DNA of 64,000 nt from assembly GCF_026210795.1 (NCBI RefSeq), contig NC_089440.1:2542001-2606000 (forward strand), given 5' to 3'. Position 1 is the first letter of the stretch. Each line of letters starts with the position of its first letter. The translations under genes and the position numbers were made by a program. Below the pieces are notes generated by a model, which was given only the letters and a program-made list of their open reading frames with translations, was not told the DNA's origin and did no database searches. Source of the DNA: Rhizophagus irregularis (Eukaryota > Glomeromycota > Glomeromycetes > Glomerales > Glomeraceae). Shown piece by piece: positions 19,290 through 39,360 of the stretch.

Positions 19290-20188
19290 TAATATAAAAA
19301 TCATTTTTATATTAAAAAAAAATTGGGTAAAATCATATTTAAGTACTTTATTTTATAATAAACTATTAATTTTAATATGTAGTTTTTATATAAATTAAAT
19401 AATTTAATAAATATTATATACTTTACTAATCTTTAAAATTATATTTTCATTTTTAAATATTTTTTTTTCTTTTTATATATATAAAAAGCTTACTAATATA
19501 TATTGGTTAATATTAATTTTATGAGAAGTCTTATTCTTTACTTTCAAATAAGATTTTTTTTAATTTATTATAATATTTAATTATATATATAATATTAATT
19601 TAACTAATAAAAAATATTTAATTTTATATTATATACTCTTATTTTCTAAAATATTAGCTAATATATGTTATAATAGCCTTTTAAAAATGAACTTATTTTA
19701 AGATTTTTTTAAAAGTTTGAATAAATATATAGTTTTAACAGTAAAATATATGTAATTTGTAAAAGAAAAAAGATTTTCAAGGGTTTAATGGTAGTTAGTT
19801 ATTTAGGTAGTTTTTATATAAATACACAAAAATTGATTTTTTAATAAAAAAAAGAATTTTTACTTTTAATAAAATTTTAATAAAAATCCTTTAACTAATA
19901 ATAAATAGTTTATTATTAAATTATTAAATTTTCTTTATTTTTTAATGATAAAATTTTATTTATTATAAAAAAGAAAAAGAAAAAAGTATTATTAAATTTA
20001 TTTTGAATAATAGTATATTTATTTTAAATAGGATTTTGGATATCTAATATATTGACTTTTTACCAAAATTAATTTTTATTAATTTTTATTTTTTAGTATT
20101 TTAGTAATTTAATTTGAATAAACTTTTTTTATTTTATAGAGCTTAATATTAACTACAAATTAAAAAATTGTTTATTACTAAATATATA
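19290..20188. repeat. AT-rich dispersed repeat, copy B left half
   Basis: This is homologous to the first part of copy A (17440-18100). It carries local differences, including an extra AT-rich block around 19500-19680, and is interrupted at the TA dinucleotide 20187-20188 by the pogo-like element. The homology resumes after 39195. Confidence 0.6.
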
Positions 20189-20441
20189 CAGTCAACTCCT
20201 TCTATAGTCACTCCCGTTATAGTCACATTCTACTATATAGTCACACCAGTTGAATGTTCAAAACACTTTATTATTAAAATCTATCCTATATAGTCACAAT
20301 CTATCTATAGTCACTATCACACCTATCCTTAAAAATCTTATATTAAAAAAAACCGTTTATAATCACAGTTATATAAAAAATATATTAAATAACTTGGCAA
20401 CTAATAATCGACAGTACGAATATCATATGCTTGTTAGAATT

Positions 20442-21985
20442 GTCTCACCTAGGACGAATCGAATGGTGGTAGTTTTATCCTTTTCCTTTGCTAGTGTTTA
20501 CGGCCAGACCACCCATTGCCTCTTATGAGACTAATCTCGGGTCTGTGTCCTATCATCTTCAATAGGCAACCATTAAACCGAAGACTTAATTAATTCGTAA
20601 CAACACCATGTAGAAGACATCCCCCATCGAGCCATTTTAGGCTGATCTGAAGCTAGGTACACGCCGCCTACTCATCCTTAATCCATTGCATGATAATGGT
20701 ACTCAATTTATTTTACGACCTTTGAGAGCACCTACTTTCATGGAGGACTTTCGACAGGTAACATCAACTATCTATACCCTTCCATACCACCATATTAGGT
20801 ACTAAGTCTCACTTAAAGGCCACTATAGCCCGCGATTACCTAGCACCGATAGTACAGTTGTTTACCCCAAGTGGTATACTTTTGTAGTGACCACTTGAAC
20901 AGGAAGTAGCAGGCATCTGTCCAGGATCACCCCCACAGCGTATCAACCACCTGCATCACCAACCCAAGCACCTTAACGAGTAGGGACCGAACCCCATAGC
21001 CACGCTACCTGTTCTCGCGCACGAACACCTTGGTTGGTCTAAGACCTAACAGAAGGTCTAACTACCACTAAGACATTGCACCCTCAGCTTTACCATCTAG
21101 GACGACCATCTAGCCATTACTGACCCCAAAAGCGGTATCGTAGAGCCGACCACCCGATACAAGCCCCCCCGAGGTATAGTAGCGACCTCATGGACATGAC
21201 TGCGCACATGCCAATGGCCTCATAGGGAACGTTAGAAGGACACTACGACCCTTAGGGCTGAAATGTGCGGCCTAACCATGTACACACTAATTCACCATGA
21301 TGCAGTCCAACTACACTAATCCCTGTACCTTCACGCTATTGGTTGTAGTGTTCGCAGTAAAATTTTTTTTATTTCCGTGGTCATAGGAATCGAACCTGCG
21401 ACCTCACCATACTCAGGCTTAATGAGGGTCTCAGTGACTAACCACCGAGATAGGGTGACCAACCCTGTTTTATCCTTTTCCGATTACTGGCTGACGAGTT
21501 ATTCAACAAAATGTTAAACATCGGCATTATAATATTTCTTGATTTACGTTTACTGCGCCATTTAACATTTTGCTAGATTTCTCAGTACCTAGTGATTGTA
21601 AAAAGATGATCGATTTATAGCTCGTTGGAATCGCCTCATCGAGACGAATTGAATGGTGATAAGCTCATCTCTCTGTGATCAATATTGACGGAGTTATTAC
21701 TTAAAAACCATTTAATATTTTTTAATTTTGGAAATTGATCTAGTGATTGATTTCGATGTATCATATACCATTAGATTCGTCTCATCAAGACGAATCGAAT
21801 GGTAGTAAGATCGTCTTTCTAGGATCAATATTGACAGAGTTATTACACAAAAACCATTAGTATTTTTTTTAATTTTGGAAATTAATCTAGTGATTGGATT
21901 TCGACGTATTTTATACCATTAGAACCGTCTCATCAAGACGAATCGAATGGCGGTAAGATCATCTCTCTACGATTAATATTGGCGA
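20442..21985. repeat. Internal tandem repeat of the pogo-like element, period about 147 bp
   Basis: Motifs of the form GTCTCATCAAGACGAATCGA, themselves partly palindromic, occur at 21633, 21779 and 21927. A diverged copy lies at 20442, beyond the SINE. Each is followed by AATGG(T/C)(G/A)GTAAG and then a GATCAATATTGACGGAGTTA-like segment. The spacing of the last three is 146 and 148 bp. Confidence 0.75.
20487..21466 (-). mobile_element. Long tRNA-derived SINE with perfect 15-bp target duplication
   Basis: On the minus strand the head begins at 21466. It has an A box (GGTGGTTAGTCACTG, 21446-21432) and a B box (AGGTTCGATTCC, 21397-21386). A second tRNA-like block lies further in: TTAGTGGTAGTTAGACC near 21060 as an A-box-like motif and GGGTTCGGTCCC near 20995-20984 as a B-box-like motif. 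The flanks are identical 15-mers, GTTTTATCCTTTTCC, at 20472-20486 and 21467-21481, showing insertion by target-primed integration. It encodes no protein. At 980 bp it is long for a SINE. A second, older copy is at 10880-11452. Confidence 0.78.
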
Positions 21986-22096
21986 AGTTACAATACAATA
22001 AAGTTTTAAGTATGATTCTGGCTAAAATTATGTTAATTTTTGGCTGGAATTATGATATACAAATATAAGAAATTTTTTATATAGTCACATCTCTTT

Positions 22097-22111
22097 ATAA
22101 TCACCAAATAT
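22097..22111. repeat. LINE target site ATAATCACCAAATAT (first of four)
   Basis: The identical 15-mer ATAATCACCAAATAT occurs at 22097-22111, 23110-23124, 31131-31145 and 39140-39154, that is, at the outer edge or junction of every LINE copy. The first and last sit in pogo-element sequence, with TATAGTCAC-type motifs just upstream of the first and GGACTGTCCC just downstream of the last. It therefore acts as the target-site duplication shared by all three insertions. Confidence 0.85.
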
Positions 22112-23109
22112 AGTTTTGTGGTTTCCGTATCAAGCTACTTTTAGATATGCTTCCAACGCTTACAACTCTTCAGAGACGAAAGCCTCATCTTTATAATCCA
22201 AGTTGTCTTTGTCCTCAATGTAATTCCTTCCCTGAGACTTTAGACCACTTGTGGACTTGTCCTTATATTTTACCTGAATTTAGCCCTTTACAAACTTTTA
22301 AAACATTACTATTGGCTCTTCGGACTACTTATCTTGATAATTTCCTTTCCGCGTCATCTTTAATCCCTTTACCGGACTCTTTTGCTGCTGAATTTATGGC
22401 TCTTAATTGTTGGGATTGTGACCCTCCTTCAATTTCCTGCCTGCGACTCACAAGAGGACTTATACCGAAATTTTTGACAGAATTTCTTGGAACTTATTTT
22501 TCTTCACCTACCATATGGTCTATCTTGGATACACCTTTGCATGACTTTCATTTTGACCTTTATGTTCAAATCTGGTTGTGCCGATCCATTTTCTTTCATC
22601 ATTGGGAATTAGCTCAAGGCATTACAAAAAAAATGAAATCGTCAGCTCTTGGGCCTTCTTCTATTCTTCGACCTTCCTCTAACATTCCTCTTGACTCTTC
22701 GACACCTTCCTTGGCGACAGCTTCCTTGGATTCCTGGGTTTCTTGGGTTTCCTCTTCTATAGTCCGTGGGGGATCTTGGATTTCACATTTGGATTTTTGG
22801 CGCCGCTTAACAGTTCAGCCTCTACTTAGGATTTCTTTTTGGTAACGGATTGGATCTTAGGACATGCTGGATAGTTGACTCACACTGGCCTTCGGGTAAA
22901 GATGGGGTATGCGTTTCTGTAATAGTTTAGTTTTTCTTTACTTAATTTTATTTTGTTTAGATTTCTTTACTTGTATGAATCGTGAAGCTAGTTCTTTTAT
23001 TTTTTATGTTTATTTTCTATATTTGATATTTGTAATATTGTTCGATCTGTTTATTGTACTTTTCGTTTGAATTTAATAATAAAAGATAAAGTCATAAGAC
23101 TGTTTGCTC
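22112..23109 (+). mobile_element. LINE copy 1, 5'-truncated
   Basis: This holds only the last 1.0 kb of the element. The truncation point corresponds to about 30135 in copy 2. It retains the C-terminal part of ORF2 and the 3' UTR ending AAGACTGTTTGCTC, and is followed directly by the shared target 15-mer. 5' truncation is the usual outcome of incomplete LINE reverse transcription. Confidence 0.85.
22113..22845 (+). pseudogene. C-terminal fragment of LINE ORF2 (copy 1)
   Basis: An open frame matches the last 240 or so residues of the full-length ORF2 at 33394-38874. It keeps the zinc-knuckle CPQCNSFPETLDHLWTC (C-x2-C-x8-H-x3-C) and the conserved C-terminus ending LLRISFW. It lacks endonuclease, RT and RNase H and cannot act alone. 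No nonsense codon interrupts the fragment. An internal ATG at 22147 is not a biological start. Confidence 0.8.
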
Positions 23110-23267
23110 ATAATCACCAAATATGGGAGGATCATCGCAACTCTTTCCTGAATTTTTGAAAATACTAATAAAAATTTATTTTTGAAATTTTCGTTCGAAA
23201 TTTCTAAGTGCTCGTTCAAAAATATTAATATTTCCACAGTTGCTTTCCTCTTTACTGAGCTTCTACT

Positions 23268-25389
23268 ATGTCTACACCTCCAGCTCCTTCTGTTATTAAC
23301 CCGGATATTCCGCCGCCACCGCGTCCTATTACTTCTACTCCCTCCGGAGACCGACCTTTGTCTCCCACGACTACCGCTGGCGCGTCTAATAAACGTTCAC
23401 GTATTGTCACTGATGATGCTATGAATGTTGATATAACTTCGCCTTCTGCTCCTGCTCCCACCCTTACTTCTTCCGTTCCTTCTGGTCTTCCTGTCAACAA
23501 AGTCCAAGTGCTTACCTCTCCTCAAACCACTACTACTCCTGTTGAAACTGTTGACGCTTCTATACATGCTCCCACTAACACCAATGGTAAAGGCAAATCT
23601 GTTGCCTTCGATGTCCCTGAACGATGACCATCCCCTGATGGTAACGCTGCCGCTATCAAATCCGCTCCATCTCGTTACTATGCTGCGGCATATTTACGCG
23701 ACGCGCCTGACGCGTTCAAAACCAAATTTATCACCAATCGCTCCATGTGTGAAGAAGTGGATTGCTCACTCTCCCGATATTCCTCATATGGTACCCGCGC
23801 ACGCTGCGATGGATCAGGCGATAATAAAAAAATCCTTGTCTTCTTCTTTGATCAACATGATTTTACCGATTGTGTCAGTTCCCCACGTGCCGATCTCCTC
23901 GATTTGGTCTTCAGTCATTATTCCCCTGCAGACGCCAAACTCAGTGACGAAATGAAGTCTTTGTTCGTCACTGATATCCCACTTTTCCTTACTGAGACTC
24001 AAGTCCGTCAAGCATTTTCCCGATATGGTACTGTGGTTAAATGCAAACTCACGCCTAAAAAACATTATTACAATGGACATATCCAGTTTTCCTGCGCGGA
24101 TGCAGTTACCCAATTTAATGATATTTGGGCAATCATTTGCCTTGGTAATTCTTTACGTGTTTGCCCAGCATCTTTTTCGAAATCCCAACGCGATAGCCGC
24201 AGAGAACATGTTGCTATCCTTGCCGGCATCCCTAAGAACATTAAAGAAGCTGATCTACTAGAAATTGCCACTCAAGTCAATGCTAAGGCCCTTAACGTTC
24301 CATTATCTATCAATTCCTACAAGCCTAAACCATATGTATATTTGAATTTCTCCTCATTCGAATCTCTTGAAGCTGCCAAAGAAATGACCGTGGCTTTCCG
24401 CGGTAAAGGATTAACATGGCACTCTCCTAACGATGCACAAACTCTATGTCATGTTTGTAGGCGTCCTGGTTGTTCTCCCTCTATATGCAATCCCCGTAAC
24501 ACACGCAAAGTGGACGATCGCCTTAACAAACTTTACTCTCGCTTCAATGCTGGCCCTAGACGTGGCCGTCAGGATTCACGACAGTCACGTGACAATTCTA
24601 ATTCCCGTTCAAGATCGCGTTCCAATTCTCGATCTCGCAATAATAATTCCTCTTCATCCCGCTCTAATATTAGCAATAATAATCCTAACACTTCTCGTCC
24701 CAATACTTCTCGAAGTAGCAACCGGCCCAACAATAATAATAATAATCCCAGGAACAATGAAAATACTTCTGGACCTACTCAACCTCCGCACAGACCTCAT
24801 CATAACATTTCTACAACGCCTACTCCTTCATCCGTCAATCCTGCCCCTACGCTTCCTCAGCATGTTATTGATGAATTAAAGGCGCAGATCAAAGAGATCG
24901 CTAACACTCTCCATACTTTGGAAGAAACTGTCTCTTGGATGAATGATACTATCACGTCTCATGAGTATAGGTTATCTGAACTGGAATCCATGATGAATTA
25001 TGATGCCCCTGGCGACTCGGATTTGCATTCGCCTCAGGATGCTCATGAACATTATAATCGTTCTTAGCGATAATGGATGGGATGATGCCCCAACCCAAGA
25101 CACGAATTCTGGTTTCAATCTTCCTCCCCATACTTCCTCTTCTCTTATGGACGTTTCTCCTGATGCTTCCTTCTCAGCCCTGGATCCTAGCTCCATCCTA
25201 TCAAGAAGACATGTCCCCTTACCTGCCTCCCGACCTACTAATATTGCCCCCGACGCCAATACTTCCCGTTTGCAATCAGAAATTTTTAATGTTACTAATA
25301 CACAAAAGAATCTTTCTGCCCAACTTGGTTCGATTATGGAAAAATTGGACTCCTTCTCCCCCTCAAAACCCTCCCCTTCCAATGATTGA
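23268..25389 (+). pseudogene. LINE ORF1, RNA-binding protein (copy 2), broken
   Basis: ORF1 proteins of LINEs coat the element RNA. Here the N-terminal 150 residues are Pro, Ser and Thr rich. An RRM-like domain around residues 230-305 has VTDIPLFLTETQVRQAFSRY and the NGHIQFSCADA strand. A second possible RRM begins near VAILAGIPKNIKEADLLE. A Cys-rich knuckle CHVCRRPGCSPSIC follows. Then comes an RS-rich basic tract (SRSRSRSNSRSR), an Asn/Pro-rich linker and a coiled-coil-like C-terminus. Lesions: a CGA to TGA stop at 23625-23627 and a 1-nt frameshift just before 25065, so the normal C-terminus lies in another frame to 25389. The ORF1 stop overlaps the ORF2 start (ATGATTGA). Confidence 0.82.
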
Positions 25390-28300
25390 ACACCAATCTA
25401 CATCGGGTGTATCACAGGGATTTCACCCCCCTATTAGTGCGAAACTTAATAATAATAGTTTTAATAATCCTTCCTCTTCCTCCCTTCCTTCCCCTCTTAT
25501 TAACTTTGGACAAATCAATGTTAATGGTTTGTGTTCTCCTGTTCGACAATTACATCTTTTAAATTATTTCCTTCATTCTTCTTTTGGCATTTTATCTTTA
25601 AATGATACTCGTCTTACTTCTTCTGGTGCTAAATTTATTTATCAAATTGAACATTCCCAACATAATTTTAAGTCCTATTGGGCTCCTTCCCCTTCTAATT
25701 CACGTCCTCATGATGGTGTTGGTCTTTTACTTCGCCATCCTTTACATAAACATGTTCAGAAAATTGATCCTTGGAAAGGTCGTCTTTTAAAATTAGATCT
25801 TTTCTTTCATCAAACTAAAATTTCTATCATTTCTGTTTACATTCCTCCTTATCACTCCATTCATTATAAAGAACGTGATGCTATTTTTGATCAACTTAAT
25901 TTATGGCTTGATCAAGCCCGTTCTAATAATTATCATGTAATCATCGTTGGTGATTTCAATGCAGATGAAATTTCACATTCACATCTTCCTCAACATCATT
26001 TGAAAATTTTGCGATCGCTTTCTTCTCGATATTTTACGGATCATCAATCCCATATTTCTTCAATTTCAGGTCCTAGTCCAACTTTTTATCATCAGAATGG
26101 TTCTTCAAGACTTGATTATATTTGGTCATCCCCTGGATTTCCTGCTCCTGGTCTTTTCTCTCAAGTTGCAACTTGTCCTATGCTGAATAATAATCAATTT
26201 ACTGATCACCGTGTACTTATAACGGCCTTTGATTTTAGCTCCTGTTTCGCTACTTTATCCAAAGCTAGATTAAAGCAGAAAAGCGAACAACGCACCATCT
26301 TTCTTTACAGAAATTTGAAAGATGATACTTGGGACAAATTTTCCAATGAAGTAAACTCACGTCTCGAGTTATACTTGACCACACATCACCCTTCAATATC
26401 TTCACTTTCAGCTCTTTCATTGGACAAACTTTGGCACGCTCTTAAACGTTCTATTCTTGGAGGTGCCATTGATTCCCTACCATTTCAACATGTATCTAAT
26501 ACTCACCATCATAAATATCCTCCCGAGCTTACCATGCTTATTGCTATCAACAAATTTTTGGATAGATTATTGTTTAAATTGACCACATCTAGGCCTGGTC
26601 GTCCTGCTCAAATTTCACAAATGATTAATTCCTTACCAACCCAATTAATCCTCCTTAAGTCTCTTTTAACAGATTATACTATACCTTCTTATAGTACAGC
26701 ACCACTTCCTACTTTTGTCAAATTTTTACGTTCACAAAAAGCTTTGGTCTCAGCTTATCTTTCCACGCAATTTCATCAACATCGTGCAGATTCCATTGAA
26801 TATTATACTGCTCTTAGAGATGAACATTTCTCTACGTCTCTGGGCTCCTTTATTTCTTCAGCCCTATCAGTAGAACATCGTTCTATCGTTCTTGACAGAG
26901 TTTTGGTCGTTATTGACTCCAAGACCACATTACTTACTGATCCTTCAGATATCAAACAAGCTGCTATTAAACACTTCCAATCGGTTGTTACTCCTCCTTT
27001 GGTCCAGTATTCTTCTATGGATTCATTTCCTCCACGATGGCAAAGAGCATATACTCCTCTTTCAGATATTGATTCATCGTTATATATCTTGGTCATGTCT
27101 CCTATTTTGGAAGATGAATGGAAAAACATTCTCAATTCTATGCCCAATAACAAAGCCTCTGGTCCTTCAAAAATTTCTTATGAGATGCTTAAACATTTAA
27201 CTGGAGATGCTTTCAATTTGTCCCTTACGTTAGCCAATGCTTGTCTCATTCATGGCGATATTCCTGCTGACTGGCGTGAAGCGCTTGTTTATCCCATTCC
27301 AAAGCCTCATGAATTTGACGCCCAATTGAAGAATACGCGCCCTATCACTCTATTGGAAACAGTACGAAAATGTGTGGTTAAGGTCGTTACAACTCGACTT
27401 TCAAAAATCTTAGCTGACAACCAAGTGCTCCAAGGTGGTAATTTTGCTGGATTGCCAGGCGGTTCCACTGACGTCCCTATTAAGATGCTTGATGCTATCA
27501 TTCATCAACGACGCTTTGACAAAACTGATGACCAAGAATTATGGATTGTTTCTCAGGATATTTCCAAGGCCTTTGACTCAATTGATTTAAACATGCTTAG
27601 ATTGGCTTTACTCCGTCTGCATTTACCGTCTTTGTTGATTAAATTTATCATTAACCTTTTTACAAGACGTAATAATAAAATTATTACTTGCCATGGTGAT
27701 ACTCCTGGATACAGAGTTAGAATTGGTATAGACCAGGGTGAAATTATTTCTCCGTTATTATGGGTAATTTATTTAGATCCTTTGCTCACAACACTTAATC
27801 GAGAAGCTAGTGATCCTTTTATTTTGAAATCTTCTGTATTATTGGATTATTCTCCAATTGAATATGAACAACACAATTTACCTGTTTCACATATTACATT
27901 TATGGATGATTCTACTTTGATCGCTTCATCTAAACGAGGAATTGAAGATCGCCTTTCCATTACTGCTGAATTTTATACTTTAAATAATATTCAAGCAAAT
28001 TCAGCAAAATATATCCTTCTTTCTTCTGAACAATTTTCTTAAACTATAGAGTTTGCTCTTTCTTCCTCTTTTTTAATTTCAAATCCTACTCTTACTTTAA
28101 AAGCGTTAGCTTTATCTACTTCTTTCCGTTTTTTAGGTGTTTGGTTCTGTCTTTCGGCTTCTTCTCGTTTTGTTTATAACCAAACTGTTTCCATGGTCAA
28201 AGATATGGCTGCTTTACTTAGTCCTAAAAAACTTTTGGCACAACATGTGGCTTATCTTTACAATATTGTTTTACTTCCGAGGCTAGAGTTTCGCCTACAA

Positions 28301-30864
28301 TCCACATTATTTGCTGAATCCACCATTAATCGCATTAGGTTTCTCCAATGCTTTCCCTTATTCGTCAGAAGGCTGGTTTGGCCTCAGTCACTCCTCTTTC
28401 CGCGCTTTTCACATTGTTGCCCTTTTCTATTCAACAAGCATTTGGTCGATTTCTATCATCCCATGTGGCTTCATGGCAGAAAATTTTTTCTCACCCTTCA
28501 TATAAGCTCTTTGCCAATTATATGATTACTTATCTCCAAGGTTTTTTGGACTGTGATGCCTGTCCTTCTACTATTGACCTGGAACCATGGTCCCATACCT
28601 TTCCTTTACGAACACATTCTTTATTTAATTCTTTATTGTTCTCTTCTCGGTTAAATATCACGTGGTCTTTATTGTTCAGACCTCCGAGGAAAGATTTACG
28701 TCCGGCGATACCACTCCGGTCTATTTTACCAAAAGATTTATTTACTTCCATGAAAAATGTTCGAAAAAATCTCAACACTCGTTTTCTTGCTCAACTGATT
28801 ACGCCGTGTGGCTCTCGACTTCTCTCATGGAAAGATTTACGCTTTCTTAAACGAGTATCGAACAAAGGATCTGTGCCTGCTTGGTTTAATTATTTGTTCA
28901 ATCTTATTATTATTCCTAATTCACCTTCTTTTTTTATTTCACAACAATTTAGAATTCCTAGTTCTCATACTGTAGCTTCTATTTCATTTATAGACATTAG
29001 TCGTAATTATTGGTTTAACCCTCAATGGGCTATTTCTTTTAATCGTATTACTAACTCTTTTCTTGTTGGCCGTGTGATTACTACCTATCCTGCTCCACGT
29101 AATGAAGCTCTTATTTCACATTGGATTGCGTCTTCGGTTGATGACTTGTTTTCTGATTTTACTGCATGCCAAGGTTGTGCCTCTGCTCTTTCGCGATCCT
29201 CTACCTCTAAGACATTGCTTAAAAGATGTCCTTCTGAAAAGTGTTTTTCCTATGTGTCTTTATCAAATCTGATCCGTTATCCGACGAAACCTCGTACTTA
29301 TATACATGCGGATACTCGCTCGGTTTCACTTTCTGCCTCGTTAGGCTATGCCAAATCTCTTTTACTTTTTCATCTTTTTGCTCCAGTTCGATTACCTTTT
29401 ACGAGTAATCAAACGTCTAGGATTTCTGATATCCAACTTCCTTCTTCGGTGTTTACACTTTATATTGATGGTTCCTTCCTTTCTCCTCCTAATCATCCGA
29501 CATCGTCAATGGCTTATGCATGGACTGCTATAGATCCTGATGGATTTATTTTGGAATCTCACTATAATAATATTTCTTCCATTTTTCCTTCTGCTTTACG
29601 ATCAGAAGCTTTTGCTTTATTGCACGGATTGGACTCCCTCCCTCGAGATTCAAAGATTACTGTCGCCACTGATTGTGCTCAATTACTTTCTTTATGGTCT
29701 TTGTATGGGGATGCTCCCTTTATTCCCAGAATGCTTAAAGAATCCAACCACCTTTTGTGGTCCTCCATACGCACTATAGTGTTGCAAAAGAATTTGGATG
29801 TTACCTTGATCAAGGTTCCTGCTCATGCTGACGACCCTTTGAATAATCATGTGGATGCATTAGCCAAAGCCGCTCATACGGACTCACATCTTTCTTCTTA
29901 TCCATCATTGGAATTACTGGCTCCTTGTATTTTACAATTTAATTCTTTGCCTGTGGATATGAATATCTGGAAATTTATTAGAGATATTTTTGACGCTAAG
30001 AGTCTTTTAACTCTTGCTGTATTGCCAAGATTTAATTCCTCTTCTTCGACTTCCGATATTGATTGGGCTTGCACCAAATTTTGTCTGACTAACAATAAGC
30101 GCTTTGTCTCCCATCGGAATGGCCATACCGAGTTTTGTGGTTTCCGTATCAAACTACTATTAGATATGCTTCTGACGCTTACAACTCTTCAGCGACGAAA
30201 GCCTCACCTTTATGATCCGAGTTGGCTTTGTCCCCAATGTAACTCTTTTCCTGAGTCTTTAGACCACCTGTGGACTTGTCCTTATATCTTACCGGAATTT
30301 AGCCCTTTGCTTACTTTTAAGACACTTTTATTGGCTCTTCGAGTCAATTGTCTTGATAAATTTATTTCCGCGTCACCTTTATCACCCTTACCGGACTCTT
30401 TTGCTGCTGATTTTATGGCTCTTGATTGTTGGGATTGTGACCCTCCTTCTTTTTCTTGCCTGAGACTCGCACGAGGACTTATACCGATATCCCTTACAGA
30501 ATTTCTTGGAAATTACTTTTCTTCACTTGCCATATGGTCTATCTTAGATACACCTTTGCACGACTTTCATTTTGACCTTTATGTACAAATCTGGTTGTGC
30601 CGTTCCATTTTCTTTCATCATTGGGAATCAGCTCAAGGCATTACTAAAAAAATGAAATTATCAGCTCTTGGGCCTTCTTCTATTCTTTGTCCTTCCTCTA
30701 ACATTCCTTTTGACTCTTCGACACCTTCCTTGGCGACAGTTTCCTTGGATTCCTGGGTTTCTTGGGTTTCCTCTTATATAATCCATGGGGGATCTTGGAT
30801 TTCACATTTGGATTTTTGGCGCCGCTTAACAGTTCAGCCTCTACTTAGGATTTCTTTTTGGTAA
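25382..30864 (+). pseudogene. LINE ORF2, endonuclease-RT-RNase H (copy 2), broken
   Basis: Domains are in order: APE-type endonuclease (INFGQINVNG, VGDFNADE, SRLDYIW, TDHRVL), reverse transcriptase (PIPKPHEFD, QDISKAFDSI, GIDQGEIISPLLW, FMDD), RNase H (LYIDGS, SEAFALLHGLD, VATDCAQLL, HVDALA) and a C-terminal zinc knuckle. The ATG at 25382 overlaps the ORF1 stop. An in-frame TAA at 28040-28042 replaces a glutamine present in copy 3. A 2-nt insertion near 28335 then shifts the frame, and the remaining protein reads on from about 28348 to 30864. The conserved Trp in the RT region (PADWREAL) is retained here, unlike in copy 3. Confidence 0.85.
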
Positions 30865-31288
30865 CGGATTGGATCTTAGGACATGCTGGATAGTTGACTC
30901 ACACTGGCCTTCGGGTAAAGATGGGGTATGCGTTTCTGTAATAGTTTAGTTTTTCTTTACTTAATTTTATTTTGTTTAGATTTCTTTACTTGTATGAATC
31001 GTGAAGCTAGTTCTTTTTATTTTTTATGTTTATTTTCTATATTTGATATTTGTAATATTGTTCGATTTGTTTATTGTACTTTTCGTTTAAAAATTAATAA
31101 TAAAAGATAAAGTCATTAGACTGTTTGCTCATAATCACCAAATATGGAGGATCATCGCAACTCTTTCCTGAATTTTTGAAAATACTAATAAAAAATTTAT
31201 TTTTGAAATTTTCGTTCGAAAATTTCTAAGTGCTCGTTCAAAATATTATTTTTCCACAGTTGCTTTCCTCTTTACTGAGCTCTAAACT

Positions 31289-33401
31289 ATGTCTACAACT
31301 CCAGCTCCTTCTGTTATTAACCCGGATATTCCGCCGCCACCGCGTCCTGTTGTCTCTACTCCCTCTGGAGACTGACCTTTATCTCCCACTAGTACCGCTG
31401 GCGCGCCCAACAAACGTTCACGCGTTGTCTCCGATGACGCTATGAATGTTGATATAACTTCACCTTCTGCTTCAGCTCCCAACCTTATTTCTACCACTCC
31501 CTCAGGTCTTCCTGTCAACAAAGTCCAAGTGATTACATCTCCTCAAAATACTACCACTCCTGTTGAAACTGTTGACGCTTCTATCCATGCTCCCTCTACC
31601 ACCAGTGGTAAAGGCAAAGCTGTCACCTTTGATATTCCAGAACGACGACCATCCCCTGATGGTAATGCTGCCGCTATAAAATCCGCTCCATCTCGTTATT
31701 ATGCTGCGGCATATTTACGCGACACACCTGTCGCGTTCAAGACTAAATTTTCCACCAATCGCTCCATGTTTGACGAAGTGGATTGCTCACTCTCCCGATA
31801 TTCCTCATATGGCACCCGCGCACGTTGCGATGGATCAGGCGATAACAAGAAAATCCTTGTCTTCTTCTTTGATCAACAGGATTTTACCGATTGTGTCAGC
31901 TCCCCACGTGCCGATCTTCTTGATTTGGTCTTTATTCATTACTTTCCTGCAGACGCCAAACTTAGTGATGAAATGAAATCTTTGTTCGACACTGATATCC
32001 CACTTTTCCTAACTGAGACTCAAGTCCGTCAGGCATTTTCCCGATATGGCACTGTAATTAAGTGTAAACTTACTCCTAGAAAGCATTACTACAATGGCCA
32101 TATCCAGTTTTCCTCCGCAGATGCAATTACCCAATTTAATGACATTTGGGCGATCATTTGCCTTGGTAATTCTTTGCGTGTCTGCCCGGCATCTTTTTCG
32201 AAATCCCAACGCGATAGCCGCAGAGAACATGTTGCTATCCTTGCCGGCATCCCTAAGAATATTAAAGAAGCTGATCTGTTAGAAATCGCTACTCAAGTCA
32301 ACGCTAAGGCCCTTAACGTCCCTTTGTCTATCAGTTCCTACAAACCTAAACCTTATGTATATTTGAATTTCTCCTCATTTGAATCCCTTGAAGCTGCCAA
32401 AGAAACGACCGTGGCTTTCCGCGGCAAAGGATTACGGCACCCTCCTGAAGCACAAACTTTATGCCATGTTTGTGGGCGTCCTGGTTGTTCTCCCTCTGTA
32501 TGTAATCCACGTCCTACTCGGAAAGTGGACGATCGCCTTAACAAACTTTATTCTCGTTTTAATGCTGGACCTAGACGTGGTCGTCAGGATTCACGCCAAT
32601 CACGTGACAATTCCACTTCCCGTTCAAGATCGCGTTCCAACTCTAGATCCCGCAATAATAATTCCTCTTCATCCCGTTCCAACAACAACAATAATACTTC
32701 TAACACTTCTCGTCCCAATACTTCTCAAAATAACAACCGGAACAATACTAATAGTAGTAATCATAGGAACAATGAAAATTCTTCCGGTTCTACTCAACCT
32801 CCACACAAACCTCATTCTGTCAATTCTACATCACCTACTTCTCCATCGGATAATCCTGCCCCTATGCTTCCTCAACATATTATTGATGAATTAAAGGCGC
32901 AGATTAAAGAGATCGCTACTACCCTTAAATCTCTTGACGAAACTGTTTCCTGGATGCAGGATACTATCACGAATCATGATTATAGAATTTCTGAGCTTGA
33001 ATCAATGATGAATTATGATTGCGGTAATCCCGATGACTCAGATTTGTACCCACCTCATAACGATCAAGAAACTCATTCCTATAAACATGGATGGGATGAT
33101 ACTCCAACCCAAGACCCGAATTCTGGATTCAATCTTCCCCCAATACCTCTTCTTCTCTTATGGACGTCTCTCCTGATGCTTCCTTCTCAGCCCTGGATCC
33201 TAGCTCCATCCTATCAAGACGACATGTCCCCTTACCTGTCTCCCGACCTACTAATACCACCCTGATGCTAACGCTTCTTGTTTGCAATCAGAAATTTTTA
33301 ATGTTACTACTACACAAAAGAATCTTTCTGCCCAACTTGGTTCGATTATGGAAAAATTGGACTCCTTCTCTCCTTCAAAACCTTCCCCTTCCAATGATTG
33401 A
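31289..33401 (+). pseudogene. LINE ORF1 (copy 3), broken
   Basis: The layout is as in copy 2: Pro/Ser-rich N-terminus, RRM-like domain (LFLTETQVRQAFSRY), Cys knuckle (CHVCGRPGCSPSVC), RS-rich tract, Asn-rich linker. A TGA at 31373-31375 replaces a CGA Arg codon near residue 29, so translation could restart only at 31442 (MNVDITSPSAS). Downstream, single-base deletions near 33140 and near 33260 relative to copy 2 throw the C-terminal coiled coil out of frame, and the open frame ends early at 33265. The expected stop overlaps the ORF2 ATG at 33394. The protein could not be made intact from this copy. Confidence 0.82.
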
Positions 33402-36400
33402 ACACCAATTTATATCGGGTGCATCACAGGGATTTCACCCCCCTAATAGTGCGATACCTAATAATAATAGTCCTAATACTCCCTTTTCTCCTTTTTTTTC
33501 TTCCCCTCTTATTAACTTTGGACAAATCAATGTTAATGGATTAAGTTCCCCTGTTCGACAATTGCATTTGTTAAATTATTTTCTCCATTCCTCTTTTGGC
33601 GTTTTATCTTTAAATGATACTCGTCTTACTTCTTCTGGTGCTAATTTTATTTATCAAAATGAACATTCACAACATAATTTTAAGTCCTATTGGGCTCCTT
33701 CCCCTTCTAATTCACGACCTCATGATGGTGTAGGTCTTTTACTTCGCCACCCTTTACATAAACATGTTCAGAAGATTGATCCTTGGAAAGGTCGTTTATT
33801 AAAACTAGATCTTTTTTTTCATCAAACAAAAATTTCTATTATCTCTGTTTATATTCCTCCTTATCATTCTATTCATTATGAAGAACGTGATGCTATTTTT
33901 GCTCAACTTAATTTATGGCTTGATAAAGCCCGCTCCAATAACTATCACGTAGTCATTCTTGGCGATTTTAATGCAGATGAAATTTCACATTCACATCTTC
34001 CTCAACATCATTTAAAAATTTTACGATTACTTTCTTCTCGATATTTTACGGATCATCAATCCCATATCTCTTCAATTTTAGGTCCTAGTCCTACCTTTTA
34101 TCATCAGAATGGTTCTTCAAGACTTGATTATATTTGGTCATCCCCTGGTTTTCCTGCTCCTGGTCTTTTCTCTCAAGTTGAAACTTGTCCTAAGCTGAAT
34201 GATAATCAATTTACTGATCATCGTGTACTTATAACGGCCTTTGACTTTAGCTCATGTTTCGCACTTTTATCCAAAGCTCGTTTAAAGCAGAAGAGCGAAC
34301 AACGCACCATCTTTCTTTACAAATACTTGAAAGATGACACTTGGGATAAATTTTCCAATGAAGTAAACTCGCGTCTTGAGTTATACTTGACCACGCATCA
34401 TCCTTCAATATCTTCAATTTCAGCTCTTTCATTGGACAAACTTTGGCACGCTCTTAAACGTTCTATTCTTGGTGGTGCCATTGATTCTCTACCATTCCAA
34501 CACGTATCCAACACTCATCACCATAAATATTCTCCGGAACTTACTATGCTTATTGCTATCAACAAATTTTTGGATAGATTATTATTCAAATTGACCACTT
34601 CTAGGCCTAGTCGTCCTGCTCAAATTTCACAAATGATTAATTCTTTACCTACCCAATTAACTCTTCTCAAATCTCTTTTAAAAGATTATACTATACCTTC
34701 TTATAGTATAACACCACTTCCCACTTTTATCAAGTTTTTGCGTTCCCAAAAAGCTTTGGTCTCAGCTTATCTTTCCACGCAATTTCATCAACATCGTGTA
34801 GATTCCATTGAATATTATACTGCTCTCAGAGATGAACATTTCTCTACGTCTCCGGGCTCTTTTATTTCTTCAGCCCTATCAGTGGAACATCGTTCTATCG
34901 TTCTTGATAGAGTTTTGGTTGTTATTGACTCCAAACCCACATTACTTACTGATCCTTCAGATATCAAACAAGCTGCTATTAAACACTTCCAATCGGTTGT
35001 TACTCCTCCTTTGGTCCAGTATTCTTCTAAAGATTCATTTCCTCCACGTTGGCAAAGAGCATATACTCCTCTTTCTGATATTGATTCGTCATTATATGAC
35101 TCGGTTATGTTTCCTATTCTGGAAAATGAATGGAAGAGCACTCTCACTTCTATGCCTAATAATAAAGCCTCTGGTCCTTCCAAGATCTCTTATGAGATGC
35201 TCAAACATTTAACTGGCGAAGCTTTTACTTTGTCTCTTGTTCTAGCTAATGCTTGTCTTATTAATGGAGATATTCCTGCTGATCGGCGTGAAGCGCTTAT
35301 CTATCCTATACCAAAACCTCATGAATTTGACGCTCAACTAAAGAATACACGACCTATCACTTTGTTGGAAACTGTACGAAAATGTGTGGTTAAGGTCGTT
35401 ACAACTCGACTTTCAAAAATCCTAGCTGACAATCAAGTGCTCCAAGGTGGTAACTTTGCTGGATTGCCAGGTGGTTCTACTGACATTCCTATTAAGATGC
35501 TGGATGCCATTATTCATCAACGCCGTTTTGACAAATCTGATGACCAAGAATTATGGATTGTTTCTCAGGACATTTCTAAGGCCTTTGACTCAATTGATTT
35601 GAATATGCTTAGATTGGCTCTAATCCGTCTACATATACCTTCTTTATTGATTAAATTTATCATTAATCTTTTTACAAGACGTAATAATAAAATTATTATC
35701 CATTATGGTGATACTTCTAAATACAGAGTTAGAATTGGTATTGACCAGGGTGAAATCATTTCTCCACTATTATGGGTTATTTACTTGGATCCTTTGCTTA
35801 CCACACTTAATCGAGAAACTTGTGATCCCTTTATCTTGAAATCTTCTGCATTATTGGATTATTCTCCTATTGAATATGAACAATACAATCTTCCTGTTTC
35901 ACATATTACATTTATGGATGATTCTACTTTAATTGCCTCATCTAAACGAGGAATTGAAGATCGCCTTTCCATTACTGCTGAATTTTATACTTTAAATAAT
36001 ACTCAAGCAAATTCAGCGAAATATATCCTTCTTTCTTCTGAACAATTTTCACAAACTATAGAGTTTGATCTTTCTTCTTCTCCTTTAATTTTAAATCCTA
36101 CCCTTACTTTAAAGGCGTTAGCCTTATCTACATTTTTTCAGTTTTTAGGTGTTTGGTTTAACCTTTCAGCTTCTTCTCGTTTCGTTCATAACCAAACTGT
36201 CTCCATGGTTAATGACATGGCTGCTCTACTCAGTCCTAAAAAACTTTTAGCACAACATGTAGCTTACCTTTATAACGTTGTCCTACTTCCGAGGCTAGAA
36301 TTTCGCCTACAATCCACATTATTTGCTGAATCCACCATTAAACGCATGGTTTCTCCAATGCTTTCTCTTATTCGTCAGAAGGCTGGTTTGGCCTCAGTCA

Positions 36401-38874
36401 CTCCTCTGTCTGCGCTTTTCACACTGTTGCCGTTCTCTATCCAACAAGCGTTCGGTCGATTTCTATCATCTCATGTGGCTTCATGGCAAAGAATTTTTTC
36501 TCACCCTTCATATAAGCTTTTTGCTAATTATATGATTACATATCTCCAAGGATTTTTGGATTGTGATGCTTGTCCCTCTATTATTGATTTAGAACCATGG
36601 TCTCATACCTTTTCTTTACGAACACATTCTTTGTTCAATTCTTTATTGTTCTCTTCTCGATTGAATATCACGTGGTCTTTATTGTTCCGACCTCTGAGGA
36701 AAGATTTACGTCTGGCGATTCCACTCCGGTCTATTTTACCAAAAGATTTATTTACTTCCATGAAAAATGTTCGAAACAATTTTGGCACTCGTTTTCTTGC
36801 CCAACTGGTTTCTCCGTGTGGCTCTCGACTTCTCTCATGGAAAGATTTACGCTTTCTTAAACGAGTATCGAACAAAGGATCTGTGCCTGCTTGGTTTAAT
36901 TATTTGTTTAATCTTATTGTTATTCCTAATTCGCCTTCCTTTTTTATTTTACAACAATTTAGAATTCCTAGTTCTCATACTGTAGCTTCTATTTCCTTTA
37001 TAGATATTAGTCGAAATTATTGGTTTAACCCTCAATGGGCTATTTCTTTTAATCGTAATACTAACTCTTTTCTTGTTGGCCGTGTGATTACTACCTATCC
37101 TGCTCCACGTAATGAAGCTCTTATTTCACATTGGATTGCGTCTTCAGTTGATGACTTGCTTTCTGATTTTACTGCATGCCAAGGTTGTGCCTCTGCTATT
37201 CCGCGATCCTCTACTTCTAAGACTTTGATTAAACGATGTCCCTCCGAAGGATGTTTTTCTTATGTTCCGTTATCAAGTTTGATCCGTTATCCTACGAAAC
37301 CTCGTACTTATATACATGCGGATACTCGCTCGGTTTCACTTTCTGCCTCGTTAGGCTATGCCAAATCTCTTTCATTATTCCAGCTTTTTGCTCCGGTTCA
37401 ACTACTTCCTATAACTGATCAAGTGTCTAGGACTTCCGATATCCAACTTCCTTCTTCGGTGTCTACACTTTATATTGATGGTTCCTTCCTTTCTCCTCCT
37501 AGTCATCTGACATTCTCGATGGCCTACGCATGGACTGCTATAGATCCTGATGGATTTATTTTGGAATCTCACTATAATATTATTTCTTCCATTTTTCCTT
37601 CTGCTTTACGTTCAGAAGTTTTTGCTTTATTACATGGATTAGACTCCCTCCCTCGGAATTCTAAGATAACTGTCGCCACTGATTGTGTTCAATTACTTTC
37701 TTTATGGTCTTTATATGTGGATGCTCCTTTTATTCCCAGAATGCTTAAAGAATCCAACCACCTTTTGTGGTCCTCCATACGCACTATTATGTTGCAAAAG
37801 AATCTGGATGTTACCTTGCTCAAGGTCCCTGCTCATGCTGACGATCCCTTGAATAATCATGTGGATGCATTAGCCAAAGCTGCTCATACTGACTCACAGC
37901 TTTCTTCTTGTCCACTATTGAATTCGATGGCTCCTTGCATTTTACAATTTAATTCCCTACCTGTGGATATGAATATCCGGAAATTTATTAGAGATATTTT
38001 TGACGCCAAAAGTCTTTTAACTCTTGCTGTATTACCAAGATTTAATTCCTATTCTTCAACTTCTGATATTGATTGGGCTTGTACCAAATTTTGTCTCAAT
38101 AACAATAAGCAGTTTGCCTCTCATCGGAATGGCCATTCCGAGTTTTGCGGTTTCCGTATCAAATTACTTTTAGATATGCTTCCAACGCTTACAACTCTTC
38201 AGAGACGAAAGCCTCATCTTTATAATCCAAGTTGGCTTTGTCCTCAATGTAACTCCTTTCCTGAAACCTTAGACCACTTGTGGACTTGTCCTTATATCTT
38301 ACCAGAATTTAGCCCTTTAAATACTTTTAAAACACTATTATTGGCTTTTCGGACTAATTATCTTGACAAATTCCTTTCCGCGTCATCTTTAATACCTTTA
38401 CCGGACTCTTTCGCTGCTGAATTTATGTCTCTTGATTGTTGGAATTGTGACCCTCCTTCAATCTCTTGCCTAAGACTCGTACGAGGACTTATACCGACAT
38501 CCCTTACAGAATTTCTTGGAATCTATTTTTCTCCACTTACCATATGGTCTATCTTAGATACACTGTTGCACAACTTTCATTTTGACCTTTATGTCCAAAT
38601 CTGGTTGTGCCGTTCCATTTTCTTTCATCATTGGGAACTAGCCCAAGGCATTACAAAAAAAATGAAATTATCAGCTCTTGGGCCATCTTCTATTCTTTAC
38701 CCTTCCTCTAACATCCTTCTTGACTCTTCGACACCTTCCCTGGCGACAGCTTCCTTGGATTCCTGGGTTTCTTGGGTTTCCTCTTCTATAGTCCGTGGGG
38801 GATCTTGGATTTCTCATTTGGATTTTTGGCGCCGCTTAACAGTTCAGCCTCTACTTAGGATTTCTTTTTGGTAA
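33394..38874 (+). CDS. LINE ORF2 polyprotein: APE endonuclease, RT, RNase H, zinc knuckle (1826 aa)
   Basis: This is the catalytic protein for target-primed reverse transcription. Endonuclease: residues about 40-275 with INFGQINVNG, LGDFNADE (about 189-196), SRLDYIW and TDHRVL. RT: about 640-910 with PIPKPHEFD, QDISKAFDSI, GIDQGEIISPLLW and FMDD at 840-843; Met at the second position of the catalytic box is unusual against FADD or YADD. RNase H: YIDGS at about 1360, SEVFALLHGLD, VATDCVQLL and HVDALA near 1490. Zinc knuckle: C1616, C1619, H1628, C1632. The start is chosen at the ATG overlapping the ORF1 stop; the frame is open further upstream to 33160, but that part is frame-shifted ORF1. One likely damaging change is PADRREAL, where copy 2 has Trp. 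No stop interrupts the frame. Confidence 0.9.
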   Translation: MIEHQFISGASQGFHPPNSAIPNNNSPNTPFSPFFSSPLINFGQINVNGLSSPVRQLHLLNYFLHSSFGVLSLNDTRLTSSGANFIYQNEHSQHNFKSYWAPSPSNSRPHDGVGLLLRHPLHKHVQKIDPWKGRLLKLDLFFHQTKISIISVYIPPYHSIHYEERDAIFAQLNLWLDKARSNNYHVVILGDFNADEISHSHLPQHHLKILRLLSSRYFTDHQSHISSILGPSPTFYHQNGSSRLDYIWSSPGFPAPGLFSQVETCPKLNDNQFTDHRVLITAFDFSSCFALLSKARLKQKSEQRTIFLYKYLKDDTWDKFSNEVNSRLELYLTTHHPSISSISALSLDKLWHALKRSILGGAIDSLPFQHVSNTHHHKYSPELTMLIAINKFLDRLLFKLTTSRPSRPAQISQMINSLPTQLTLLKSLLKDYTIPSYSITPLPTFIKFLRSQKALVSAYLSTQFHQHRVDSIEYYTALRDEHFSTSPGSFISSALSVEHRSIVLDRVLVVIDSKPTLLTDPSDIKQAAIKHFQSVVTPPLVQYSSKDSFPPRWQRAYTPLSDIDSSLYDSVMFPILENEWKSTLTSMPNNKASGPSKISYEMLKHLTGEAFTLSLVLANACLINGDIPADRREALIYPIPKPHEFDAQLKNTRPITLLETVRKCVVKVVTTRLSKILADNQVLQGGNFAGLPGGSTDIPIKMLDAIIHQRRFDKSDDQELWIVSQDISKAFDSIDLNMLRLALIRLHIPSLLIKFIINLFTRRNNKIIIHYGDTSKYRVRIGIDQGEIISPLLWVIYLDPLLTTLNRETCDPFILKSSALLDYSPIEYEQYNLPVSHITFMDDSTLIASSKRGIEDRLSITAEFYTLNNTQANSAKYILLSSEQFSQTIEFDLSSSPLILNPTLTLKALALSTFFQFLGVWFNLSASSRFVHNQTVSMVNDMAALLSPKKLLAQHVAYLYNVVLLPRLEFRLQSTLFAESTIKRMVSPMLSLIRQKAGLASVTPLSALFTLLPFSIQQAFGRFLSSHVASWQRIFSHPSYKLFANYMITYLQGFLDCDACPSIIDLEPWSHTFSLRTHSLFNSLLFSSRLNITWSLLFRPLRKDLRLAIPLRSILPKDLFTSMKNVRNNFGTRFLAQLVSPCGSRLLSWKDLRFLKRVSNKGSVPAWFNYLFNLIVIPNSPSFFILQQFRIPSSHTVASISFIDISRNYWFNPQWAISFNRNTNSFLVGRVITTYPAPRNEALISHWIASSVDDLLSDFTACQGCASAIPRSSTSKTLIKRCPSEGCFSYVPLSSLIRYPTKPRTYIHADTRSVSLSASLGYAKSLSLFQLFAPVQLLPITDQVSRTSDIQLPSSVSTLYIDGSFLSPPSHLTFSMAYAWTAIDPDGFILESHYNIISSIFPSALRSEVFALLHGLDSLPRNSKITVATDCVQLLSLWSLYVDAPFIPRMLKESNHLLWSSIRTIMLQKNLDVTLLKVPAHADDPLNNHVDALAKAAHTDSQLSSCPLLNSMAPCILQFNSLPVDMNIRKFIRDIFDAKSLLTLAVLPRFNSYSSTSDIDWACTKFCLNNNKQFASHRNGHSEFCGFRIKLLLDMLPTLTTLQRRKPHLYNPSWLCPQCNSFPETLDHLWTCPYILPEFSPLNTFKTLLLAFRTNYLDKFLSASSLIPLPDSFAAEFMSLDCWNCDPPSISCLRLVRGLIPTSLTEFLGIYFSPLTIWSILDTLLHNFHFDLYVQIWLCRSIFFHHWELAQGITKKMKLSALGPSSILYPSSNILLDSSTPSLATASLDSWVSWVSSSIVRGGSWISHLDFWRRLTVQPLLRISFW

Positions 38875-39360
38875 CGGATTGGATCTTAGGACATGCTGGA
38901 TAGTTGACTCACACTGGCCTTCGGGTAAAGTTGGGGTATGCGTATTCTGTAATAGTTTAGTTTTTCTTTACTTAATTTTATTTTGTTTAGATTTCTTTAC
39001 TTGTATGAATCGTGAAGCTAGTTCTTTTTATTTTTTATGTTATTTTCTATATTTGATATTTGTAATATTGTTCGATTTGTTTGTTGTACTTTTCGTTTAA
39101 AATTAATAATAAAAGATAAAGTCATAAGACTGTTTGCTCATAATCACCAAATATGGACTGTCCCAAATGTGTGACTATAAAGAGAGTTGACTGTACTGAA
39201 AAAATTACAAAAAATAAAAAAACAGAAAAAGAGCAAATTTTATTAAATCACTAGTATGAATTATTTTAAAGATATCTGGGATTCTTTTTAAACTAAAAAA
39301 AATTACAAAATTTTTATTATTTTTAGTAAATTTACTTTTGTTTAATCATGTTTTAATATT

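Follow-up and report, generated by a model that had tools for sequence, protein, structure and literature searches.

The targets of known site-specific LINEs of the APE type are mostly genes for rRNA or small RNAs, telomeric repeats or microsatellites. One of them, Tx1L, has its target inside the Xenopus DNA transposon Tx1D, and we know of no head-to-tail arrays or SINE-like partner of Tx1L. Target-specific APE LINEs are said to fall into the Tx1 and R1 clades (PMC4640811), and 'other TEs' are named among known LINE targets (PMC8869645). In Drosophila 28S genes, tandem copies of R1 (ancestral type) are separated by a 14-bp target-site duplication, and newcomers are thought to go into this duplication on the 5' side of a copy already in place, with variable 5' joins (PMC2718515). 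Furthermore, R2 and R2/R1 SIDEs represent deleted LINEs with ribozyme heads (PMC3414825). For the arbuscular mycorrhizal fungus Rhizophagus irregularis, the strain genomes of which average 147 Mb, a repeat library with LINE/L1-Tx1, LINE/L1-R1 and SINE entries has been described (PMC11075540).

In the stretch of R. irregularis DNA analysed here (64,000 nt; the window), one copy of a pogo-type MITE is swollen to 19 kb by four retroelements. Its parts are given below in window coordinates, where site A denotes the 15-mer ATAATCACCAAATAT, site B the 15-mer GGAAAAGGATAAAAC, and LINE-A the family that occupies site A.

20187 to 39195, plus strand: pogo-type MITE, about 965 bp when empty and 19 kb here, with terminal inverted repeats; left end TACAGTCAACTCC.., right end ..GAGTTGACTGTA
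20472 to 20486, minus strand: site B copy, 3' flank of the SINE-like element (503 exact copies of site B in the genome, control 0)
20487 to 21466, minus strand: SINE-like element of family B, 980 bp, tail type B; head tRNA-like by eye only
21467 to 21481, minus strand: site B copy, 5' flank of the SINE-like element
22097 to 22111, plus strand: site A copy 1, preceded by MITE sequence
22112 to 23109, plus strand: LINE-A copy 1, 5'-truncated, 998 bp
23110 to 23124, plus strand: site A copy 2, LINE-to-LINE junction
23125 to 31130, plus strand: full-length LINE-A copy 2 (8006 bp) with ORF1 in frame 23628-25067 and ORF2 in the two frames 25058-28042 and 28339-30864
31131 to 31145, plus strand: site A copy 3, LINE-to-LINE junction
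31146 to 39139, plus strand: full-length LINE-A copy 3 (7994 bp) with ORF1 in frame 31376-33265 and ORF2 in frame 33100-38874
39140 to 39154, plus strand: site A copy 4, followed by MITE sequence GGACTGTCCC

Site A is exact at all four positions (22097, 23110, 31131 and 39140, all on the plus strand), and the truncated and the two full-length LINE-A copies occupy the intervals between them, just as a sequence-only reading of the window had described it. Since matches to site A with up to three mismatches are not enriched in the window (11 vs 12.15 expected), only the exact matches carry weight here. The same reading had placed the outer two 15-mers in pogo-element sequence, and the ends TACAGTCAACT at 20187 and 39195 indeed put both within one DNA transposon. 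The further retroelement in this MITE copy, at 20487-21466 on the minus strand, lies between two copies of site B, which is found about 625 bp from site A and in opposite orientation.

LINE-A is an APE-type non-LTR retrotransposon. ORF2 of copy 3 (1924 codons) encodes an APE endonuclease, a reverse transcriptase (RT), an RNase H and a C-terminal zinc-finger-like motif, while its ORF1 encodes an RRM and a CCHC-like knuckle. In Pfam searches one LINE-A frame matches Exo_endo_phos (9e-13), RVT_1 (1.5e-15) and RNase_H (4e-6), and in the PDB the RT matches solved R2 (3.5e-19) and L1 (7e-17) proteins, with neither score deciding the clade. Self-comparison of the window yielded only whole copies and the 15-mers, and no long terminal repeats. 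Apart from window copy 1 with its 998 bp, 5' truncation is seen genome-wide, as 13 of the 89 LINE-A 3' ends described below align over less than 650 bp.

The carrier is a pogo-type MITE, as judged from the TA duplication and the CAGT.. inverted ends of a short element. Five copies without an insert at site A (L168-L171, L176) measure 955-966 bp including the TA, three of them 965 bp. Both ends carry TACAGTCAACTC next to the TA duplication, a pogo-type combination. The pogo label is also in keeping with transposase loci: the MITE ends in TA plus CAGTCAACTC, and two of 14 excised loci with a DDE_1 match (from at least 163 such matches in the genome) are bounded on both sides by the same outer end, with TACAGTCAACTC on either side at a distance of about 2.2 kb, and five of the 14 contain CAGTCAACTC at least once. 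Because the inner parts of their ends differ from the MITE, the DDE_1 elements are relatives and not a proven source of it. Site A itself sits in a near-palindrome at the right end of the MITE, where TCTTTATAATCACCAAATATGGAC is similar to TCTTTATAGTCACACATTTGGGAC, the terminal stretch in inverted form (window 22092-22111 and 39155-39195; likewise in L168). This terminal stretch lies tens of bases from site A and was not seen occupied in the junctions read.

To place the window in its genomic setting, we searched the genome (146.7 Mb in 32 contigs), with control patterns alongside. Site A has 646 exact copies, compared to one for the reversed control, which rules out chance for the exact matches. 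A word at the LINE-A 5' start occurs 68 times (control 0), and all 68 exact words were read, 66 elsewhere and two in the window; starts mutated within the word fall outside this count. Site A precedes every one of the 68 starts, exactly in 60 cases and with one mismatch in eight. Further to the left, 38 cases show MITE sequence, 19 a LINE-A 3' end (two of these in the window) and 11 a SINE-like 3' end. All 38 flanks that hold no other retroelement show the same MITE end. At the other end, a 13-mer from the LINE-A 3' end has 120 copies (control 0), 100 of which were listed and 92 of these read (89 elsewhere, three in the window; the other eight of the 100 lie on contigs C25-C27). By BLAST, 89 of these 92 belong to LINE-A. 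The other three (L085, L086 and L102), the words of which lie off site A, were removed from the LINE-A count, as BLAST finds no LINE-A there. Site A directly follows 88 of the 89 LINE-A 3' ends (76 exact, 12 with one mismatch), and in the single shifted case, L082, it begins after 6 extra bp. The expectation that genomic LINE-A copies adjoin the 15-mer on either side thus held for 68/68 starts and 88/89 ends. In a rough sort of what lies beyond the first 15 bases, the 92 words are followed by MITE sequence (39), a LINE-A start (25), a SINE-like start (11) or other sequence (17). This last group includes the three non-LINE places, the shifted L082 and what look by eye like truncated pieces of LINEs or SINE-like elements.

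Unoccupied targets are abundant as well. The undisturbed MITE context of site A is found 297 times exactly (control 0), the left flank joined to site A 423 times and site A joined to the right flank 398 times. Twenty solitary site-A 15-mers on C1-C2, picked for having no LINE word adjacent, all lie in the MITE; 19 are empty and one has a SINE-like insertion. LINE-A is a target-specific LINE, with nearly all copies examined residing at one target of which empty versions are present.

The 15-mer could in principle be the LINE's own terminal sequence instead of a target, since it flanks the copies read and separates the units of arrays. Against this stand the 297 empty MITE sites without a LINE and the 20 of 20 solitary sites located in the MITE, as well as the flanks themselves. 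Among 37 LINE-A copies outside the window for which both junctions were read, 36 have identical 15-mers on their two sides, including four which share a variant target; the exception is a copy on C23 (L055/L138) with unequal 15-mers. In an array on C5 (1.81-1.84 Mb) the variant AAATAA is present at all four junctions read, and in another on C12 (3.79-3.82 Mb) ATAATCAACAAATAT recurs at all five. Variants are hence common to both flanks of a copy and differ between loci. A sequence that follows the locus cannot belong to the LINE, and a 15-mer that is the same on both flanks, shared variants included, establishes a true target-site duplication. Truncated copies such as the first one in the window also keep the 15-mer on both sides, and this applies even to a copy reduced to its last 34 bp (L013). 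The empty sites and the locus-specific variants refute an origin of the 15-mer from the LINE terminus, to which we assign virtually no chance.

The duplicated target may be slightly longer than the 15-mer, at 16-17 bp, as site A and the LINE-A start are usually separated by one or two G; the sequence-only reading had overlooked this, and likewise the element at site B. One to five bases separate site A from the LINE-A start word, and as these are mostly GA or GGA, the duplication may span 15-17 bp. At one locus (L020, C28 at about 603 kb) a LINE-A 3' end is followed by site A, the last stretch of the MITE, a short LINE-A tail, site A again and a new LINE-A start, which represents a rearranged or read-through junction.

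Arrays such as the one in the window are frequent, with 17 LINE-A to LINE-A junctions visible from coordinates alone. Head-to-tail arrays with near-constant spacing would also be expected if a single insertion had later been duplicated in tandem by unequal crossing over, with either the 15-bp or the LINE repeats as partners. In that case neighbours should be close relatives. The neighbour is, however, the nearest relative in none of 24 adjacent array pairs, and adjacent copies are sisters in none of 21 pairs in a tree of 76 LINE-A copies with at least 650 bp aligned (13 shorter ends were excluded, so that the tree covers 14 of 17 arrays). Identity between copies 2 and 3 of the window is only 90.3% (8006 vs 7994 bp), whereas over its last 255 bp copy 3 matches a copy on C1 without a single difference and one on C19 almost perfectly. 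Moreover, LINEs, SINE-like elements and truncated copies alternate within arrays. We therefore reject crossing over for the sampled LINE-A arrays, in which neighbours are not nearest relatives, and regard it as extremely improbable as a general explanation; the units of an array arrived separately. The sequence-only reading had likewise argued against a recent tandem duplication and for a target-specific APE-type LINE which re-enters its own regenerated target, a proposal that the flank census and the relatedness of array units now support.

The order of units within arrays is informative, too. Using the identity to the nearest relative and the terminal branch length over 700 bp as age proxies, the upstream copy has a closer relative elsewhere and a shorter terminal branch in 17 of 21 pairs, for which shuffling the order within the 14 arrays gives p values of 0.0014 and 0.0010. 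By the same proxy the downstream copy is the younger one in the remaining four pairs, among them window copies 2 and 3. Statistically, LINE-A arrays thus grow mostly at their 5' edge, with most insertions entering the upstream copy of the site, and array order can serve as a rough record of the order of arrival. Entry at the upstream copy suggests that the upstream MITE flank may help recognition. Since one native flank is always present in arrays that grow from one edge, we do not claim that the 15-mer alone is sufficient.

Site B hosts a second system of the same kind. Among the first 100 site-B matches listed, spacings cluster near 1 kb and near 7.85 kb, and five units of 7835-7864 bp between site-B copies represent a sister family, LINE-B. 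Between LINE-A and LINE-B, protein identity is 74% for the endonuclease domain, 84-86% for the RT domain and 37% for ORF1. At the DNA level the last 400 bp are 82-84% identical, the endonuclease-RT part about 71% over 3.2 kb, and most of the other alignable sequence 64-66%. That the 3' ends resemble each other more closely than the remainder of ORF2 (about 64-71%) although the targets differ argues against the 3' end setting the target. When the site-B places among the matches listed were compared with 42 site-A places, 31 opposite-strand pairs no more than 1.5 kb apart were obtained, and 24 of the 31 are spaced by 621-633 bp.

A LINE-B 3' word has 151 genome copies (control 1), 32 of them on C1-C6. 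Exact site B follows 15 of these 32, and ten of the remaining 17 were read, revealing eight variants of site B and two further cases, L194 and L196. Site B or a variant is therefore present at 23 of the 25 LINE-B 3' ends checked (of 32 on C1-C6 and 151 in all). L196 is located in other sequence and may not be LINE-B. In L194 (C3, about 403 kb) a LINE-B 3' end sits elsewhere in the same MITE, at a sequence that partly resembles site B; this is possibly an off-target event, and it could show which target bases matter. On the 5' side, a LINE-B start word occurs 60 times (control 0), and site B or a variant precedes all 15 starts checked, seven following exact site B and eight variants of one or two bases. 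One of these eight (L185) has non-MITE sequence upstream of its B-like 15-mer. Variants are common to both flanks in four LINE-B intervals, namely L178/L189, L179/L190 and L184/L197 of about 7.8 kb each, and L181/L193, which extends over 10.3 kb and may include an additional insertion. Tandem copies occur for LINE-B as well: on C14 and C22 its 3' word is followed by a new LINE-B start after 27 and 30 bp, respectively. Taken together, these junctions establish a site-B system parallel to that at site A. Between site B and the LINE-B start, a second, partial copy of site B is visible in four of the 15 junctions read (L178, L183, L163, L173) and differs from the local target in L178, L183 and L163. 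Transcription of LINE-B may begin ahead of the element, so that the RNA would bring target sequence of its donor locus with it.

The LINE-B insertion in L194 and the use of one-base variants of site A (8 of 68 starts) could indicate that the endonucleases are only loosely selective and that the MITE simply provides the commonest matching sequence. Yet none of the 68 LINE-A starts and 89 LINE-A 3' ends lies away from the site, and the similar stretch at the MITE end was not seen occupied in the junctions read. We consider a merely loose preference very unlikely. The census demonstrates target specificity of LINE-A, but the original picture of a single LINE at a single MITE site was too narrow: it holds for LINE-A at site A, while in extent the system comprises a pair of docking sites, each with a LINE family and a SINE-like family of its own.

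The SINE-like elements measure 1000 bp at site A, and 968 and 980 bp at site B. Between the site-A element and the site-B element of the window, the bodies are 87% identical over about 760 aligned columns, whereas the tails (47%) are unrelated. In a non-random sample of loci matching a tail, tail A leads into site A every time (22/22) and tail B into site B (10/10), hence the tail agrees with the site in 32 of 32. The head contains GGTTCGATTCC, by eye a B-box-like motif, and its predicted fold has no clear cloverleaf. Neither ARAGORN nor Rfam detected a tRNA in the head, and BLAST returned no significant match of the tails to the ends of LINE-A or LINE-B (best E 0.16). Because the tails are unlike the LINEs and the head is not confirmed by ARAGORN or Rfam, we use the label 'SINE-like'. 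A diverged relative of the SINE-like head is found in the window at 11450-11245 on the minus strand (84% over 207 bp), with no exact site A or B alongside.

As BLAST does not significantly link the tails to the LINE ends, it is the shared site that speaks for a partnership with the LINEs. The same lack of a BLAST match would be expected if further LINE families, having the same targets and SINE-like tails, had moved these elements. Nonetheless, the SINE-like elements share the exact duplicated site with LINE-A or LINE-B and are interleaved with them in the same arrays, and no additional LINE was recognised among the flanks read. We regard such further families as rather unlikely. From the shared site and the mixed arrays we infer instead that the SINE-like elements use the proteins of LINE-A and LINE-B.

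These data lead to the following proposal, which we consider highly probable as a whole. LINE-A, by means of its APE endonuclease, would insert by target-primed reverse transcription at the 15-17 bp starting with ATAATCACCAAATAT, located in the right terminal region of the pogo-type MITE, an abundant element of about 965 bp. The first strand would be cut at the left boundary of the 15-mer and the second strand 15-17 bp further downstream. As the whole target is duplicated, the site would be renewed on both sides of the insert, and as each landing copies the site, later arrivals would line up head to tail. Later LINE-A copies and the 1-kb SINE-like element would enter mostly at the 5' copy, to which the left flank of the MITE is still attached, so that head-to-tail arrays tend to be youngest upstream. 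LINE-B and its own SINE-like element would do likewise at the second site of 15-17 bp, about 625 bp away on the other strand. The involvement of the element's own endonuclease in target-primed reverse transcription, the positions of the nicks and the need for the upstream flank are the predicted parts of this scheme, while a MITE docking system as such is well supported at the sequence level. A more far-reaching version would be a three-tier system, for and against which we see the balance as about even. Here, the MITE would be the almost exclusive home of sister LINEs, the endonucleases of which have split to two opposite-strand sites; the non-autonomous elements would have switched site by exchanging only their 3' tail, target choice thus travelling with the RNA tail that a LINE protein accepts; and arrays would be time-ordered strata growing from one edge.

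Two sister LINEs that share 74% endonuclease identity and use different 15-bp targets within one element offer a natural experiment on target choice, and LINE-A and LINE-B could provide compact enzymes for site-specific insertion. With empty and occupied sites in the hundreds, strains can be compared for target use, for array growth and for the way in which autonomous and non-autonomous elements divide the work. Moreover, the system suggests a way for a retrotransposon to settle on a safe harbour which is itself mobile and spreads on its behalf, and fixed docking in the MITE may keep the LINEs out of genes.

The LINE/L1-Tx1, LINE/L1-R1 and SINE entries of the R. irregularis repeat library may include LINE-A, LINE-B and the SINE-like families; the main text of that study does not contain the terms 'insertion site', 'target site', 'nested', 'tandem' or 'pogo' (PMC11075540). 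In the open-licence literature searched we found neither a report of LINE-A or LINE-B target specificity in R. irregularis nor a small DNA transposon with two docking sites for sister LINEs, partners whose tails predict the site, and age-ordered arrays. Like R1, LINE-A is a target-specific LINE with arrays split by the duplicated target, entry from the 5' side and variable 5' joins, but the R1 target is a host rRNA gene, whereas that of LINE-A lies in a mobile element. While the entry side of R1 was inferred from junctions, that of LINE-A is supported by relative ages; furthermore, the accessible text on R1 describes no second sister system in the same target carrier, whereas LINE-A has LINE-B (PMC2718515). 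The SINE-like elements resemble SIDEs in being non-autonomous and occupying the exact site of a target-specific LINE (PMC3414825). They differ from SIDEs in their length of about 1 kb, a head that is tRNA-like by eye and tails unlike the LINE ends. Compared to Tx1L, LINE-A likewise has its target inside a DNA transposon, yet Tx1L belongs to an animal host and uses one site, whereas two sites are used in the same element here. By analogy, the system would work like R1 in the formation of arrays and like Tx1L in taking a DNA transposon as target.
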